Source: Natrialba magadii ATCC 43099
GTDB taxonomy: Archaea > Halobacteriota > Halobacteria > Halobacteriales > Natrialbaceae
NCBI RefSeq assembly: GCF_000025625.1
Contig: NC_013922.1
Span: 1,550,001-1,614,000, forward strand
Reading direction: 5' to 3'
Length of the DNA stretch: 64,000 nucleotides
The notes under the pieces: model-generated
Told to the model about the DNA's origin: nothing
Database searches by the model: none
The model's input: the letters and a program-made list of their open reading frames with translations, nothing else
Program-made: the position numbers and the translations under genes
In this document: positions 23,071 to 33,070 of the stretch, piece by piece
Layout: each line of letters starts with the position of its first letter
Position numbering within the stretch: position 1 is the first letter of the stretch

Positions 23071-23090
23071 TACGTGAACCAGTTCACGTA
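23071..23090. promoter_or_regulatory. Perfect 20-bp palindrome abutting the PIN-ATPase-KH start codon
   Basis: TACGTGAACCAGTTCACGTA has two perfect 9-bp arms with a 2-base centre. It lies between the TATA-like CTTATAGGC (23061-23069) and the ATG, whose A is its last base. For a leaderless transcript the palindrome would cover the transcription start, a classic repressor position, or would form a hairpin at the 5' end of the mRNA. Confidence 0.65.
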
Positions 23091-24985
23091 TGAACGTCGT
23101 GCCGGACACGAGCGTGGTCATCGACGGCCGCGTCTCGGCGACGATTGACGATGGGCAGTTCGAGGGAGCGACGATTTCCGTCCCCGAAGCGGTCGTCGCA
23201 GAACTCGAGGCGCAGGCCAACGACGGCATCGAGACCGGCTGGGACGGCCTGGAAGAACTCCAGCGACTCGCCGACCTCGCCGACGAGGGCGCGATCGAAC
23301 TCGAGTACGTCGGGGAGCGTCCGAGCGCAATCGAGCGCGGACACGCCTCCGAGGGCGAGATCGACGCGCTGATCCGCGACATCGCGGAGGATCTCGAGGC
23401 GACCTTCCTCACGAGCGATATCGTGCAGGCCGAGGTCGCCGAGGCGAAGGGCCTCGACGTTGAGCACGTCACCCCTGAGACCCGCGAGGTCGACGTGGGG
23501 ACGCTGACCGTCGAGACGTACTTCGACGAGGCGACGATGAGCGTCCACCTGAAGACGGACACCGTCCCGATGGCAAAGCGCGGCGAACTCGGCGAGATGC
23601 GCTACAAGGAAATCGCCGACGAGCCGTTAGACGAGGCCACGATGGACGAGTACGCCCGCGAGGTCGTCGACGCCGCAAAGGAGTCTTCGGAGGGCTTCAT
23701 CGAGCTTTCGGAGCCGGGGATGAAGATCGTCCAGTTCCGGGACTACCGGATCGCCATCGGTCGCCCGCCGTTTTCGGACGGGATCGAGATCACCGCGGTT
23801 CGACCGATCGCCCAGACGGACATCGAGGACTACGAGAACGCCGAGGAGCTGAAAGAACGCCTCCTCGAACGCCAGCGCGGCGTCCTCATCTCTGGTGCAC
23901 CCGGGGCAGGGAAGTCGACCTTCGCCCAGGCGGTCGCCCGGTTCATCTCGAACCACGATTACGCGGTCAAGACGATGGAGAAGCCTCGCGACCTGCAGGT
24001 CGGTCCCGAGATCACCCAGTACACCGAACTCGGCGGTGAGATGGCGAAGACGGCCGACGCCCTGCTGATGGTCCGGCCCGACTACACCATCTACGACGAG
24101 GTTCGCAAAACCGACGACTTCGAGGTCTTCGCGGACATGCGCCTCGCTGGCGTCGGCATGATCGGTGTCGTGCACGCAACCCGTCCGATCGACGCCCTGC
24201 AGCGCCTCGTCGGCCGCGTCGAACTCGGGATGATCCCGCAGGTCGTCGACACCGTCGTCTACATCGAGGCCGGAGAGGTCAACACCGTCTACGACGTGCG
24301 CACGGAGGTCAAGGTCCCCGCAGGTCTCACCGAGGAAGACCTCGCACGACCCGTCATCCAGGTCACGAACTTCGAAACCGGTGAGCCGGAGTACGAAATC
24401 TACACCTTCAACCGCCAGGTCGTCACCGTTCCCCTCAAAGAGGAGGAGGGCGGCCCTGGCAGCGAATCCGGCGTCGACCGAATCGCGAAACAGGAGATCG
24501 AACGCGAGATTCGCTCCGTCGCTCGCGGCTACGTCGACGTCCAGTTGAAGGGCCAGAACACCGCCACCGTCTACGTCGAAGACGACGACATCTCGAGTGT
24601 CATCGGGAAAGGCGGCGGCCGGATCACAGATATCGAGAACCGACTCGGGATCGATATCGACGTGCGGACGCACGACGAGAACCCGAACTACGGCGCAGGT
24701 GCGGGTGGTGCAAGCGCGAACGGCCGCGGTGGCGGTAACAGTGGCAGCAGCGGCGGACAGGCTGCAGGCCAAATGGTCACCCCCGAAATCACCTCCCGCC
24801 ACATCGTCATCCCCGTCGACGGCAACCACGGTGAAACCGTCGAGGTCCAGGCCGGCGGCGACTACCTCTTCACCGCAACGGTAAGTCGCGGCGGGGAGAT
24901 TCAGGTCTCGCGCGGCAGTGCGATCGCGGACGAGTTAGAGCAGGCGATCGATCGGAAGGATCCGGTTACGGTCGTTCCATCGTAG
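23090..24985 (+). CDS. PIN domain - VirB11-like ATPase - KH domain protein
   Basis: The 631-residue protein has three modules. Residues 1-130 form a PIN nuclease-like domain starting VPDTSVVIDGRV, with conserved acidic residues. Residues about 230-440 form a secretion-type ATPase: Walker A GAPGAGKST near 269, then YTELGGEM, IYDEVRK and VVHATRPIDALQRLVGR. Residues about 480-540 hold a KH RNA-binding domain (SSVIGKGGGRI). A Gly/Ser linker and a small C-terminal domain follow. The architecture is conserved in archaea but its job is not settled; RNA processing or RNP remodelling is a reasonable inference. It stands alone between a 20-bp palindrome at its start and a terminator-like hairpin just past its stop. 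Confidence 0.9.
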   Translation: MNVVPDTSVVIDGRVSATIDDGQFEGATISVPEAVVAELEAQANDGIETGWDGLEELQRLADLADEGAIELEYVGERPSAIERGHASEGEIDALIRDIAEDLEATFLTSDIVQAEVAEAKGLDVEHVTPETREVDVGTLTVETYFDEATMSVHLKTDTVPMAKRGELGEMRYKEIADEPLDEATMDEYAREVVDAAKESSEGFIELSEPGMKIVQFRDYRIAIGRPPFSDGIEITAVRPIAQTDIEDYENAEELKERLLERQRGVLISGAPGAGKSTFAQAVARFISNHDYAVKTMEKPRDLQVGPEITQYTELGGEMAKTADALLMVRPDYTIYDEVRKTDDFEVFADMRLAGVGMIGVVHATRPIDALQRLVGRVELGMIPQVVDTVVYIEAGEVNTVYDVRTEVKVPAGLTEEDLARPVIQVTNFETGEPEYEIYTFNRQVVTVPLKEEEGGPGSESGVDRIAKQEIEREIRSVARGYVDVQLKGQNTATVYVEDDDISSVIGKGGGRITDIENRLGIDIDVRTHDENPNYGAGAGGASANGRGGGNSGSSGGQAAGQMVTPEITSRHIVIPVDGNHGETVEVQAGGDYLFTATVSRGGEIQVSRGSAIADELEQAIDRKDPVTVVPS

Positions 24986-26773: not shown

Positions 26774-27067
26774 TTATTCCGCACAGCAGGCGTCTTTCTT
26801 CGGCGCCTCGTCGACACCGCTCCCGTCTGCCGCCACTGGTTCCTCCAGCCGATACAAGCTCTGGCGCGCATCAGCAAAGTAGATATCCTCGTCGACGATT
26901 CCGATCTCCTCGAGGCGCTCGAGTGCGTACCGAACCGTCCGCGCCGAAAGCATCGACTCCTCGACGATCTGCTTCTGGGTGAGCGGCCCGTCGTACTCGA
27001 GAACCTTGAAAACGAGTTTGGCGCTCGGAGGCAAGTCTTCGATCTCCTCCCCGTCGGTCTCTACCAT
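26774..27067 (-). CDS. Winged helix-turn-helix transcription regulator
   Basis: The 97-residue protein is one winged-helix domain: SAKLVFKVLEYDGPLTQKQI, then EESMLSARTVRYALERLEEI as the recognition helix, then a wing (VDEDIYFADARQSLYRL). This matches the short MarR/TrmB-like regulators common in haloarchaea. The end is unusual, KKDACCAE, with a vicinal cysteine pair that could bind metal or sense redox state. Just past the stop, a 16-base direct repeat duplicates the sequence coding for the last residues. The promoter is strong (TATA at 27092-27100). Confidence 0.82.
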   Translation of the reverse strand: MVETDGEEIEDLPPSAKLVFKVLEYDGPLTQKQIVEESMLSARTVRYALERLEEIGIVDEDIYFADARQSLYRLEEPVAADGSGVDEAPKKDACCAE

Positions 27068-27329: not shown

Positions 27330-30300
27330 ATGGACGGGGATCACAGGGGTGTCGGTGGGGACCGAGCCGCAAGTCCAGTACTCGGTATTGTTCTTCTCTT
27401 TGCGATGGTCGGGATTGGTGCACTCCTGCTGTTCACAGCTGGATCCATTATGCTCGACGGGCTTGGCTCTGAGGTCGACCGCGAAAAGGTCCACCTCTGT
27501 ATGGACGAGACTGACCACCGGCTCGGCACCGTCGCCTCAACGGGATACGAACAATCGCTAGCACTTGACGATCCAGATTGCCAACCCTCGGTTGTCAGCG
27601 ATGGCTCAATTTCAATCACCTGGTACAACAGTACGGACGGTAAAAAACCACCATGGGACAACTCGAGTCGGACAGCCACTGAAGATCTTGGTGCACTCGA
27701 GTTCGAACTCGAGGATCGGACGCTCGCACACCAGGGTGGTGCCATCTGGGAGGTTTCTGAGTCCAGCGTGCGAACAGAGAAGTCGCCGGAGATCGGCTTC
27801 ACCGAGGATGGATTGCTGGAACTGGGGTTCATGCAGGTCCATCAGTCGGAGACGATCGGATCGGAGGGAGTTCTCCGGCACGACTTCGAAAGCGAGTCGG
27901 AAGCGGCAACAAACCTCACGACAGCGGTTGAGGAGGCGAACGAAGACGTTGCGATCAAGATCGAGAGCGAGTATGCGGAGGGGTGGAAGGACCACCTCGG
28001 AAGCGAAGAAGAGTACGCTGATCAATTCCACGAGTTCGATGTCAACGTAGAGTCGACCTCGAATCCCAACGAGGTCGTGATGACGATCGAAGAGATCGAC
28101 ACAGCCCCAGAAGAGCCGTATTTCTTGGTCGAAGAGGACCACGGGCTATGGGATCAAGGCGGGAACGAGCCACTTCCTAGTCATATCTTGGATCATGGGG
28201 ACTTCTTCCACGTCAATACGACACTGATGAATTACGGAAACGAATCAGGGCATGTCAACGCTACGCTCATGATTCGGGACGAATCGGGTACTGGTGTCGA
28301 GAGTCGGGAAATCACGTCTGACGACGAAATTGAGCCTGGCGAATATATCTCGACGGCCAATCACTCGGAGTGGAACTGGGACGGGGCTGGCGCAAACCAC
28401 TTTTTCAAAACTGGCAACCCAAGCGATGCAATCGGCGTCGAACCGGGGGAAGAGTACGAGTACAACGTCGAAACTGCTCCAGGAGGGGCCACCCTCAACG
28501 ACCCAGGCCAATTCATCATCGAGGATGATCCACCGGAGGTCACCATCACTAACGTCGAGGATCCAGTCGGCCAGGGAGAGACGTTAACAGTCCACGCAAA
28601 TGTCGAAAAGCGCGGGTATGGAGACGATCAACTCGTTTGGCTCAGTGGTTTCGACGGCACCATCGTTGACACCACCGAAGTCGATTCCGAGGGGAGTGGA
28701 ATGGAATCGGTCGAACTCGAGTGGGGAAGCGTCGATTTACCCACGGACTCCACTGACACCGAAATCGCAGTCGGAACGGAGTCTAACAGTGATACCGAAA
28801 AGGTCGATGTCTATCCGTCGCTCAACATAACCGATATCGATGTGCTTGATGATCCGGTTGAGGAAGACGGATCGGTAACCGTTGAGGCAATTATTGAATC
28901 AATAGGAGATGAAGCCGAAACAGATGTATTTATAGGGGGGGACGAGGCCGGTAGTCAGTCCGTTACCGTTCCGGATACGGGAACAAAGGCTGTCGAACTT
29001 GAGTATGACGTTGGAGAGCGAACTGATCGCATCACGGTCAGGACGGATAGTTTCGAAGCAGAAGACGACGAGATGGAGGAAGTTGTCGTCGTCAAGCGAG
29101 ATGGGCCAGAATGTGATGCCGTCGATTATGAGGGTAGTGGGTCAGAACATGACCCGTATCAAATAAGCAACGTCGATCAGCTCCAGTGTATCAACGATCA
29201 GGGCCTCGATGAACATTACGAACTCGTCGACAACATCGATGCCCACGGAACCGAGTACTGGAATCCAGCTGTGAGCCACTCAGAAACAGTATATCCAGAA
29301 AGCCGCGAATTTGGATTAGGTGATCGGTTTGAGCTCTCCAACACTCCCGTAGTTGAAAGAAGTGTCGAGGTAGATGCAGGCACTTTGAATAGTGATCCAG
29401 AGTTTGAGCTTATCGATGCCGAAGCAGGCGTCGTAGAGATACGAGAGGATTCAGGACGGGGCGACAACTGGAGGCAACTAGAGGTATCCTATCAGGAGTC
29501 AACAGAGTCCGGCGAACCCCGTGGATTCGAACCGATCGGGCAAGACGGGAACCCCTATGCGGCAAACGGTGACCAAGGGAACTCCAGTGGATCGTTCGAC
29601 GGCCATTTCAATGGAAGCGGTCACCTGATTGAGGGACTATCCATCGATCGACCCGATGAACGATTTGTTGGGTTGTTTGGTGCGACAGGTCACACGACGA
29701 ACGCCGATCCAGTCGGTTCTGGGTCAACGATAGAGAACGTGAGGCTTGCCGACGTGAACATCCATGGACAACAGCACGTTGGTGCACTCGTTGGTCAGGC
29801 CGGCGGTGAAGTGATTCAATCACGCAGTGAGGGAGTTGTCAGAGGTGAAGAACAGCTGGTGGGTGGATTAATTGGAGACGGGGCTCACGCCAGTCTTGAT
29901 AATGAACTTGTCGCGGAAGGTACCGTAATTGGTGGGCCGAACACCGATTACAGGAATGGTGAAGGAATCGGTGGGCTGATTGGCCGATCAACGTTCCAGA
30001 CCGAGGTTTCTGTGGGCTATACACAGAACATGACGGTGATCGCCGATGATGGAAATTCGGTTGGAAGTCCACCAGACCGGAGCCATGCGGGAGGGCTCAT
30101 CGGGACATCATCCTACCGAGACTCTACATTCGATCAGATGTATACGATTACGAACGCCGACGGATTTGACGGCGCGACTGGGGCAATTGTCGGAACGATC
30201 TTGGGTGCTCAGGGAGAAAGCACTACCGGTGACACGTTCACCGAGAGCGTCTACTGGCAGAACAGTGAAGATCCGTACGGCGTAAATGATGTTGATTGGA

Positions 30301-30875
30301 ACGCACCAAGTCCCACACTCAACTGGAATGGGCGGAGTGAAGACGACATGAAAGGTAACGATGTGAACCAAGGCGGCAGAATGGGCAACCTCAACTTTGA
30401 GGAAGAGGGGGGCCCATGGGTCGCCGTCCCCGATGATTACCCTCGCTTCGACTGGGAGCTCGAGGCCGAGGGAATCTTCGAGGTCGACATTGACAACGTC
30501 GAAAACGTAACCGCCGGCAACTCCACTACGATCGATGCCACGGTTACGAGCCGTGATACGGACTTGGATGAGGACGATGTCCCACAGATAATCACGCTCA
30601 CGGACACCGACGGCCAGGTCGTCGATACGAAAGAAGTGGTAGAAAGTGATCTAAACGAAGACGGCGAGACGGAGGTCGAACTCGAGTGGCAGACCAGTCT
30701 CAACGACGATGGCAGCGGCGAGGTGACTGTTCGAAGCGAGGATCGAGCGGATTCAGCACCGATTGAGATCGAACCCGGCGACGAAATCGACTGGACTGGG
30801 GACGCAGATGGATCGCTGGACGACATCGGCGATTCCACGATTGAGATTGATGTTGATGCCGTCGAGGTTGGCTGA
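27330..30875 (+). CDS. Giant pilin-like surface protein with CARDB-type and GLUG repeats
   Basis: The 1181-residue protein starts with a class III signal: GDRAASPVLGIVLLFAMVGI then a hydrophobic helix, as in archaeal type IV pilins and DUF7289-type proteins, so it is probably inserted or assembled through its N-terminus. Residues about 60-330 form a pilin-like head. From about 405 to 590 come two CARDB/Ig-like beta domains (ITDIDVLDDPVEEDGSVTVE). From about 590 to 1040 lies a GLUG adhesin region with repeats such as VGALVGQAGG, VGGLIGDGAH and IGGLIGRSTF. A third CARDB-like domain ends the chain. A role in surface adhesion is inferred. Base composition is less GC-rich than the neighbours, consistent with transfer. 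A TTTTTATA promoter element lies near 27290. Confidence 0.8.
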   Translation: MDGDHRGVGGDRAASPVLGIVLLFAMVGIGALLLFTAGSIMLDGLGSEVDREKVHLCMDETDHRLGTVASTGYEQSLALDDPDCQPSVVSDGSISITWYNSTDGKKPPWDNSSRTATEDLGALEFELEDRTLAHQGGAIWEVSESSVRTEKSPEIGFTEDGLLELGFMQVHQSETIGSEGVLRHDFESESEAATNLTTAVEEANEDVAIKIESEYAEGWKDHLGSEEEYADQFHEFDVNVESTSNPNEVVMTIEEIDTAPEEPYFLVEEDHGLWDQGGNEPLPSHILDHGDFFHVNTTLMNYGNESGHVNATLMIRDESGTGVESREITSDDEIEPGEYISTANHSEWNWDGAGANHFFKTGNPSDAIGVEPGEEYEYNVETAPGGATLNDPGQFIIEDDPPEVTITNVEDPVGQGETLTVHANVEKRGYGDDQLVWLSGFDGTIVDTTEVDSEGSGMESVELEWGSVDLPTDSTDTEIAVGTESNSDTEKVDVYPSLNITDIDVLDDPVEEDGSVTVEAIIESIGDEAETDVFIGGDEAGSQSVTVPDTGTKAVELEYDVGERTDRITVRTDSFEAEDDEMEEVVVVKRDGPECDAVDYEGSGSEHDPYQISNVDQLQCINDQGLDEHYELVDNIDAHGTEYWNPAVSHSETVYPESREFGLGDRFELSNTPVVERSVEVDAGTLNSDPEFELIDAEAGVVEIREDSGRGDNWRQLEVSYQESTESGEPRGFEPIGQDGNPYAANGDQGNSSGSFDGHFNGSGHLIEGLSIDRPDERFVGLFGATGHTTNADPVGSGSTIENVRLADVNIHGQQHVGALVGQAGGEVIQSRSEGVVRGEEQLVGGLIGDGAHASLDNELVAEGTVIGGPNTDYRNGEGIGGLIGRSTFQTEVSVGYTQNMTVIADDGNSVGSPPDRSHAGGLIGTSSYRDSTFDQMYTITNADGFDGATGAIVGTILGAQGESTTGDTFTESVYWQNSEDPYGVNDVDWNAPSPTLNWNGRSEDDMKGNDVNQGGRMGNLNFEEEGGPWVAVPDDYPRFDWELEAEGIFEVDIDNVENVTAGNSTTIDATVTSRDTDLDEDDVPQIITLTDTDGQVVDTKEVVESDLNEDGETEVELEWQTSLNDDGSGEVTVRSEDRADSAPIEIEPGDEIDWTGDADGSLDDIGDSTIEIDVDAVEVG

Positions 30876-30929: not shown

Positions 30930-31253
30930 ATGTCGACCGAATCGATTAGCGACCGGCGCGAGCACATTCGCTCGATCAGCGTCACCGCGCTGGCCGCGCT
31001 GCTCGGCGTCGGGACGGCGCTCGCCTCCATGGCGCTCACCGGTGATGTCTCACCGGGTGAGGCCGCAGGCGATACGCGAGCGCTCTTGCTCGTCCTCACC
31101 GCGATCGTCGCACAGATCGTGCTCTTCGACGTCACGAGCATCTATAGCGACGACGAGTTCGGGATCAAACACTACCTGTTCATCACGTTCATGACCTTCT
31201 CGATGTGGTTTGTGACGTGGGGTATCCTGCTCACCGCGGAGCTTAACGCATAA
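30930..31253 (+). CDS. EMC6-like small membrane protein
   Basis: The 107-residue protein has a charged N-terminal tail (SISDRREHIRSISV) and three membrane helices, with acidic loop TSIYSDDEFGIKHY between the second and third. Topology and length match the EMC6/Rab5-interacting-like proteins of archaea; the family name is recalled rather than proven here. It ends two bases before the RLI start, so the pair forms an operon. EMC6 in eukaryotes belongs to a membrane-protein insertase, which makes the link with a ribosome-recycling factor suggestive. Confidence 0.7.
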   Translation: MSTESISDRREHIRSISVTALAALLGVGTALASMALTGDVSPGEAAGDTRALLLVLTAIVAQIVLFDVTSIYSDDEFGIKHYLFITFMTFSMWFVTWGILLTAELNA

Positions 31254-31255
31254 CC

Positions 31256-33070
31256 ATGGCGGACGACAGCATCGCCGTCGTAGACTTAGATCGGTGCCAG
31301 CCCGACCGCTGTAGCTACGAGTGCAAAAACTACTGTCCGCCGAACCGGACCGGCAAGGAGTGCATCACGCTCCGTGGCGAAGAAACGCCCGAGGGACAGC
31401 CCGAGCAGGTCCGCATCTCCGAAGAGATCTGTCTCGGCGAAACCTGTGGCATCTGCGTCGAGAAGTGCCCCTTCGACGCGATCGAGATTATCAACCTACC
31501 ACAGGAATTGCAGGAAGAACCCGCACACCGCTACGGTGAGAACGCCTTCTCGCTGTACGGCCTTCCAGCTCCGCAGGAGGGACAGGTCACCGGCATCCTC
31601 GGCCCGAACGGGATCGGGAAAACGACCGCCGTTCGCATCCTCGCCGGCGAACTCGAGCCCAACCTCGGCCGCTACGAGGAGTCGCCAGACTGGGACGAGG
31701 TACTGGAAGCCTACCGTGGCACGGAACTACAGGACTACATCGCCGACGTGCGCGACGGCGAGATTACCGTCGCCCGAAAGCCACAGTACGTCGACCAGAT
31801 TCCAAAGCAGTTCGACGGCAACACCCGCCAGCTCCTGGAGCAGACGGACGAACGCGACGCGCTCGACTCACTCGTCGAGCGGCTGTCGATCGGCCCCGTC
31901 ATGGACCAGGCGATCGAGGATCTCTCCGGCGGCGAACTCCAGCGCGTTGCGATCGCAGCGACGCTGGCACGAGATACGGACTTCTACTTCCTGGACGAGA
32001 TCACCCCGTACCTCGACATCGGACAGCGCGTTACCGCAGCGCGATTGATTCGCGAACTCGCCGAGGACGAAGGGAAGTCGATGCTCGTCGTCGAGCACGA
32101 CCTGGCGATCCTCGACCTGCTCGCCGATACCTTACACGTCGCCTACGGTGAGCCCGGTGCCTACGGTGTCATCACCTCGCCGAAGTCGGTCCGGAACGGG
32201 ATCAACGAGTACCTCTCGGGCTATCTCGACAACGAAAACATGCGGATTCGCCAGAATCCGATCGAGTTCGAGGAGCACGCCCCACGAACCGCGACCCACG
32301 GCGACGTGCTCGTCGACTATCCGGACCTCTCCAAGAGCTACGGAGAGGGCGAATTTAGCCTCGAGATCAAGGGCGGCGAGATCCACCGCAACGAGGTACT
32401 CGGTATCGTCGGCCCGAACGGAATCGGGAAGTCGACGTTCGCAAAACTGCTGACTGGCAATCTCGACACGGACGAGGGCGATGCCGACCTCGACCTGGAT
32501 ATCTCCTACAAGCCACAGTACGTGACGATCGACCAGCACATGCGAGTCGACGCGTTCCTCTCCTCGATTACGGACCAGTTCGGCTCCTCGTACTGGAACA
32601 CCGAAATCGCCCAGCCGCTCCAACTCGAGCGGATCATGGAACAAAACCTCTCCGATCTCTCCGGCGGTGAACGCCAGCGGGTCGCCATCGCGGCCTGTCT
32701 GTCGGACTCTGCAGACCTGTACCTGCTCGACGAACCGTCGGCGCACCTGGACGTCGAACAGCGCGTCCAGGCAACTAGCGCGATCCGACGCTACGCCGAA
32801 CAGCAGGACGCGACCGTGATGGTCATCGACCACGACACGTACATGATCGACCTGCTCGCGGATCGGCTGATGGTCTTCGACGGCGAACCAGCGGTCCACG
32901 GTCACGCCAGCCAGCCCCAGCCGATGCGCGACGGTATGAACGAGTTCCTCGCTAATCTCGAGGTTACGTTCCGCCGTGACGAGCGCACGTCGCGTCCGCG
33001 AATCAACAAGCCAGACTCGCAACTAGACCGCGAGCAAAAGCGCGAAGGCGAGTACTACTACTCGCCCTGA
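31256..33070 (+). CDS. ABCE1/RLI ribosome-recycling ATPase
   Basis: The 604-residue protein has the full ABCE1 plan. Residues 1-75 bind two 4Fe-4S clusters (RCQPDRCSYECKNYC and CLGETCGICVEKCPF). Two ATPase domains follow, with Walker A GPNGIGKTT and GPNGIGKST, signatures LSGGELQRVAIA and LSGGERQRVAIA, and Walker B segments YFLDEI and YLLDEPSAHLD. ABCE1 splits ribosomes after termination and is essential in archaea. The start follows the EMC6-like stop by two bases. The C-terminus is basic and Arg-rich, as in homologs. Confidence 0.97.
   Translation: MADDSIAVVDLDRCQPDRCSYECKNYCPPNRTGKECITLRGEETPEGQPEQVRISEEICLGETCGICVEKCPFDAIEIINLPQELQEEPAHRYGENAFSLYGLPAPQEGQVTGILGPNGIGKTTAVRILAGELEPNLGRYEESPDWDEVLEAYRGTELQDYIADVRDGEITVARKPQYVDQIPKQFDGNTRQLLEQTDERDALDSLVERLSIGPVMDQAIEDLSGGELQRVAIAATLARDTDFYFLDEITPYLDIGQRVTAARLIRELAEDEGKSMLVVEHDLAILDLLADTLHVAYGEPGAYGVITSPKSVRNGINEYLSGYLDNENMRIRQNPIEFEEHAPRTATHGDVLVDYPDLSKSYGEGEFSLEIKGGEIHRNEVLGIVGPNGIGKSTFAKLLTGNLDTDEGDADLDLDISYKPQYVTIDQHMRVDAFLSSITDQFGSSYWNTEIAQPLQLERIMEQNLSDLSGGERQRVAIAACLSDSADLYLLDEPSAHLDVEQRVQATSAIRRYAEQQDATVMVIDHDTYMIDLLADRLMVFDGEPAVHGHASQPQPMRDGMNEFLANLEVTFRRDERTSRPRINKPDSQLDREQKREGEYYYSP

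Follow-up and report, generated by a model that had tools for sequence, protein, structure and literature searches.

Can a pilin-type N-terminus carry a surface protein several times the length of a pilin, and what would the remainder of such a protein be for? The question is raised by a gene of Natrialba magadii ATCC 43099 that lies in the window, the 64,000-nucleotide stretch of contig NC_013922.1 analysed here (source assembly 4,443,643 bp in 4 contigs). Coordinates are those of the window unless a locus is named, and an earlier note on this DNA had described the product as a pilin-like N-terminus combined with GLUG adhesin repeats.

Parts of the encoded protein

The reading frame (27330..30875, plus strand, 1181 aa) encodes a large DUF7289 pilin-like surface protein, as indicated by the ORF itself, by Pfam and by congener orthologs. 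It is genuine, as the note had taken it to be, since two congeners have full-length orthologs at the same site with 80% and 77% identity. The protein begins with a class III (prepilin-type) signal, GDRA↓ASPVLGIVLLF, and its residues 12-29 read RAASPVLGIVLLFAMVGI. Residues 1-13 form the leader peptide (27330..27368, plus strand), with a predicted prepilin peptidase cut after A13 (GDRA↓ASPVLG) that is based on an invariant Arg at -2 and Gly, Ala or Ser at -1 in 24 same-locus proteins and on alignment with EERA↓VSPVIG of Natrinema PilA2. The hydrophobic H-domain or α1 helix follows at residues 14-38 (27369..27443, plus strand), as read from the sequence. DUF7289 is a Pfam family of unknown function, and its match to residues 12-232 (PF23960; 27363..28025, plus strand; E-value 1.7e-11), which scores 44.6 bits against a curated cut-off of 27, defines what we call the pilin-like carrier.

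The remaining, extra part of about 900 aa is a very large, acidic and spacer-rich ectodomain. A β-rich spacer at residues 271-595 (28140..29114, plus strand) is CARDB-like by similarity, its residues 403-574 matching the CARDB repeats of another protein of this genome (L047, discussed below), and it is followed at residues 596-1045 by a GLUG-type module (29115..30464, plus strand), assigned by alignment and by PF07581 matches in the window copy and its homologs. In the search of its own genome the window copy gives one PF07581 match (29766..29840, plus strand), at 15.6 bits below the cut-off of 20.5, whereas the same-locus homologs L055 and L080, whose modules can be aligned with it, score 27.2 and 30.3 bits. 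The GLUG-type assignment of the note is therefore right, but the repeats of the window copy are degenerate and lie under the cut-off. Residues 797-925 also bear a faint resemblance to IgA1 protease chains (E-value 0.011), which points the same way, and NCBIfam gave no match for the window protein. The protein is completed by a C-terminal β-domain at residues 1046-1168 (30465..30833, plus strand), inherited with residues 1-645 according to the identity profile and informative sites, and by the conserved tail STIEIDVDAVEVG at residues 1169-1181 (30834..30872, plus strand), which is common to the unrelated ectodomain classes C and D described below.

The carrier and its link to type IV pili

A type IV pilus operon of nine kilobases lies elsewhere in the genome (C1:3248246-3257575, L095) and encodes a T2SSE ATPase with PilB3_C, a T2SSF protein and five small proteins assigned to DUF7287, DUF7288, DUF7261, DUF7266 and DUF7289, which are likely the pilin-like subunits of this pilB-pilC operon. 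Its last gene encodes the DUF7289 member, a protein of 255 aa that can be aligned over its whole length with the window protein and has in common with it the invariant Arg at -2 and W219. The genome also has a prepilin peptidase family match alongside pilB and pilC. Chemotaxis-like genes on the opposite strand come after the operon.

A profile built from 21 carrier domains and searched against the PDB found only four matches at E-values up to 5, all of them archaeal pilins or archaellin; these are weak (E-values from 6e-4 for the best to 0.7) and strongest over the hydrophobic helix, with RAVSPVIG of Natrinema PilA2 and of 9myg aligned under the window signal. The profile matches support homology between the DUF7289 carrier and pilins and say nothing on processing or assembly. 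AlphaFold models of the whole protein and of the mature N-terminal domain, made from a shallow input of the window sequence and that of the congener L017, have mean pLDDT values of 27 and 34, and the N-terminal helix is the sole part modelled with a pLDDT near 70.

The note had proposed to see whether homologs lie near pil genes. The window gene itself does not: beside it are a winged-helix gene, a gene for a 107-aa membrane protein and ABCE1, with no adjacent pilB or pilC. Haloarchaeal pilins are often encoded in trans (PMC4858521). The PIN-ATPase-KH protein at 23090-24985 of the window, which resembles PilT-type ATPases, was ruled out as pilus machinery because it belongs to an archaeal family without secretion contexts (PMC4858521). 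The size of the protein, which had been regarded as unusual, is not, since lengths of well over 1000 aa are on record for archaeal proteins that bear a pilin signal (PMC4371748) and many DUF7289 proteins of 500-1300 aa occur across the order, where the carrier is matched in 116 of 146 genomes, many times in frames of that length. Long DUF7289 proteins are thus widespread in haloarchaea. A scan of viral contigs gave no further carrier sequences, and within the collection of papers searched, no description of DUF7289 or of large haloarchaeal pilins with vWA was found.

A proposed role as a modular pilin-like adhesin

Based on these features of the sequence, we consider, with a probability of roughly 0.6, that the window protein is an archaeal modular pilin-like adhesin that is processed by PibD, is exposed either in a pilus or on the membrane and has a ligand-binding middle open to exchange. 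The precursor would be exported by Sec and cut by PibD after A13, upon which the hydrophobic helix and the DUF7289 domain would serve as the carrier, which might either join a type IV pilus, as a minor subunit of low abundance or at the tip, or stay in the membrane. The carrier would hold out the CARDB-like spacer and the GLUG-type repeat module, which may bind a putative ligand and so mediate adhesion, and the protein would end in the conserved β-strand-like tail. Selection for ligand or surface variation plausibly drives the swapping of modules described below. The binding-module reading is supported by the vWA alleles found at the same site, vWA being what serves for adhesion in PilB of Streptococcus sanguinis.

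The data are also consistent with a protein that stays unassembled in the membrane, and this is the counterpoint that the preferred reading has to bear. PibD would in that case cut the leader, but the H-domain would hold the protein back in the cytoplasmic membrane, where it would act at the cell surface as a receptor or adhesin on a stalk and never enter a pilus, as might suit a very large, acidic and spacer-rich ectodomain encoded apart from pilB and pilC. We regard this as unlikely, though far from negligible, as the conserved H-domain and the relative of the carrier in a type IV pilus operon point to a role alongside the pilus machinery, if only an ancestral one.

One chromosomal site, four ectodomain classes

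The modular pilin-like reading gains from the way in which the locus varies. On its left, the site is marked by a conserved winged-helix gene (26774..27067, minus strand), found 93-99% identical at the same position in the other six genomes of the genus, and on its right by the gene for the 107-aa membrane protein (30930..31253, plus strand), found in 58 of 61 genomes of the family, and by the conserved neighbour ABCE1/RLI (31256..33070, plus strand), from which the flank tree was made. All seven Natrialba genomes have a DUF7289 protein at this site beside the winged-helix gene, in the GLUG form in three and in a DUF7305 plus vWA form of 874-899 aa in four. In 40 further genomes we surveyed the stretch that precedes the 107-aa gene and ABCE1, and a large DUF7289 protein, of 778-1345 aa where intact, lies beside ABCE1/RLI in at least 26 of the 47 Natrialbaceae genomes, the window included. 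These 26 comprise an interrupted copy (L081) and one that runs off the fetched stretch (L084), and 24 N-termini are intact. The gene of genome G046 (L081:1221-6911) is split by a segment that holds a transposase-like ORF, and genome G022 (L079) has a near-identical unbroken gene.

All-against-all comparison of the same-site proteins found the carrier to be common to every pair, and the ectodomains to fall into four classes: A, with GLUG; B, with DUF7305 and vWA; C, with no named domain and weak CARDB/Fn3-like matches; and D, with no named domain (L067 and L082). Class A resembles C and D in short spacer or end similarities only, C and D are partially similar, and the class B ectodomain showed no similarity to A, C or D in this comparison. 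Two classes occur within each of five genera (g1, A and B; g5, B and C; g9, C and D; g19 and g20, A and C). On the ABCE1 tree at least 11 class changes are needed, where the maximum possible for these labels is 16, and class is therefore only loosely tied to phylogeny. For example, the vWA allele of genome G004 is nested in the GLUG clade of the window as the sister of SSL1 (support 99/91).

Mosaic structure and exchange

Exchange is also seen within the gene. In residues 1-645 and 1046-1181, identity to congeners is mostly 73-96% and that to L056, an allele from another genus, 35-66%, whereas residues 746-1045 (29565..30464, plus strand) are 74-90% identical to L056 and 46-74% to the congener L017. 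Informative sites outside this block favour L017 at 326 positions and the foreign allele at 27 (271:23 and 55:4), while those within it favour L017 at 15 and the foreign allele at 77 (Fisher p 2.5e-47; p 8.6e-30 in the same test with L041). In the AU test the tree of the flanks rejects a grouping of the window gene with L056 (p 3.6e-6) and that of the block rejects a Natrialba clade (p 0.005). The block boundaries were picked after the identity profile had been seen, and the Fisher and AU p-values are descriptive. By these comparisons the window gene is a mosaic, in which residues ~746-1045 resemble an allele from a different genus more closely than that of a congener. The donor need not have been L056 itself; at third positions identity is only about 45%, which implies either an old exchange or a relative as donor.

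Fast point-mutational diversification of the GLUG block, with no exchange between lineages, would explain the same divergence, given that exposed repeat modules can evolve fast and that the breakpoints of the block are not razor sharp. We find this improbable, because the block is nearer to another genus and because its fourfold-degenerate sites are near saturation (identity to L017 of 25-45%, as compared with 66-83% over most of residues 1-645 and 1046-1181). Fast selection on amino acids would therefore not suffice by itself.

The earlier note had taken transfer from the low GC content. The gene is indeed lower in GC than its flanks (0.544 against 0.633), but this is weak evidence, and we discarded it as sufficient proof, since most alleles at the site lie below their flanks, down to 0.493 in G004. 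Exchange at the locus is shown instead by sequence mosaicism and by the swapping of alleles.

Conservation of the predicted processing signal

The alleles of the site also bear on the proposed cleavage by PibD. Published criteria for archaeal class III signals place a charged residue at -2 and Gly, Ala or Ser at -1, with a cut before the hydrophobic domain and near the N-terminus (PMC4371748), and the site MDGDHRGVGGDRA↓ASPVLGIVLLFAMVGIGALLLF, which the note had wished to see checked, agrees with all of these. Arg at -2 and Gly, Ala or Ser at -1 are kept in 24 of the 24 intact same-locus N-termini (that of L082, DRG↓ASSIIG, was read by eye), though the rest of the leader varies. An N-terminus that was an ordinary membrane anchor in all homologs, which the note had named, along with the lack of a pilin fold, as counting against its reading, is not what the family shows: the conserved signal, the short DUF7289 protein in the pilB-pilC operon and PDB matches confined to archaeal pilins and archaellin all speak for the pilin type. 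The least probable of the alternatives, that of an ordinary N-terminal signal-anchor protein which merely resembles a pilin and is not processed by PibD, can draw on a motif so common that 6 of the 58 window ORFs pass the loose scan, which is unspecific when used alone, but hardly accounts for a -2 and -1 pair that is invariant behind a variable leader or for homology to an operon-encoded pilin-like protein. Pilin_N (PF07790) gave no match to the window protein at E-values up to 1 in Pfam, and the best same-locus homolog for this family, L052, scores 24.0 bits against a cut-off of 25.2.

A conserved C-terminal tail

A common tail of about 13 residues, with the consensus x(I/V)(D/E)(I/V)DxDxIx(I/V)G, forms the C-terminus of proteins from classes A, C and D; in class C it is preceded by a variable linker rich in Gly, Ser and Asp. 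Using a matrix trained on the tails of C and D only, all seven class A tails rank 10-17 among 1947 C-termini, and the class B tails rank 757 or lower. As the A and C ectodomains are otherwise largely unrelated, the tail is under a constraint of its own. As a guess at its role, it may dock to the carrier, to an adjacent subunit or to the S-layer. The idea that the tail supplies the final strand of a split pilin domain was ruled out, since the short DUF7289 protein of the pilus operon can be aligned through to its C-terminus with residues of the window protein no further than ~257.

Taken further, and more tentatively, the site is possibly a dedicated haloarchaeal surface-variation locus. Between a constant pilin carrier and a constant tail, the latter perhaps a novel element for assembly, docking or sorting, there would lie a ligand-binding middle that species and genera exchange, both as entire alleles and as modules smaller than the gene. 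The repeated replacement of the ectodomain at one site, behind a constant pilin-type N-terminus, suggests that these archaea alter the adhesive targets of their surface via module exchange.

Comparison with known systems

Modular pilins of bacteria have been defined by a pilin module of the IPR012902 type together with an extra domain that is not specific to pili, as in S. sanguinis PilB, with its adhesive vWA module, and PilC, with a lectin (PMC8179133). Like these, the window protein has a pilin-type signal and a carrier onto which a non-pilus binding module appears to be grafted, and its same-locus relatives carry vWA or GLUG above the cut-off. Unlike the bacterial proteins, whose survey was built on the IPR012902 motif, it has a DUF7289 carrier and a much larger extra part (~900 aa), with alternative modules at one orthologous site and a common C-terminal tail. 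We conclude from this comparison that the window protein probably works like a modular pilin, and do not file it as a member of the bacterial set as the carrier family differs.

Within the haloarchaea, it belongs with the DUF7289 proteins by its carrier, which scores above the cut-off and has a short member in the pilB-pilC operon of this genome, but differs from the short, highest-scoring members (~250-330 aa) in bearing a GLUG-type ectodomain. With archaeal PilA-type pilins (Haloferax volcanii PilA1-6 and Natrinema PilA2) it has in common the signal R[GA]↓xSPVxG and the hydrophobic helix, and differs in the missing Pilin_N match of the window copy and in a different and much larger globular part. 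The GLUG-type and CARDB-like modules can also be aligned with those of PGF-CTERM surface proteins from this genome (L047) and a congener (L049), which are anchored by a C-terminal PGF-CTERM and not by an N-terminal pilin-type helix; thus the genus employs these modules with more than one kind of anchor. L047:1470-4499, on the 255-kb contig C3 of the same genome (G000), combines GLUG, four CARDB repeats and the PGF-CTERM anchor.

What is new is the locus, with its fixed site, constant carrier and tail and replaced middle, and not the size of the protein. Modular pilins have been described for bacteria, and here an archaeal counterpart would have a different carrier and at least four alternative ectodomains at one orthologous site. 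With this series, provided by nature, one can ask what modules do on a pilus, how archaeal filaments accommodate large cargo and whether archaea use the exchange of modules to vary their surface, and DUF7289 gains a testable role.

Other occupants of the site

Several genomes hold other surface-type genes in the gap, which thus has the look of a hotspot for exported proteins. Where it is without a pilin-like gene in L051, L061, L063, L065, L069, L078, L083 and L088, we note proteins that resemble signal peptidase I, and small ones whose N-termini are GTGAFSSVEADR-like, the latter TasA/camelysin-like by eye. In L059, L073, L077 and L087 an AMP-dependent synthetase-like gene (METPLIVTDFLEQAR..., identified by eye) occupies the gap instead of the pilin-like gene.
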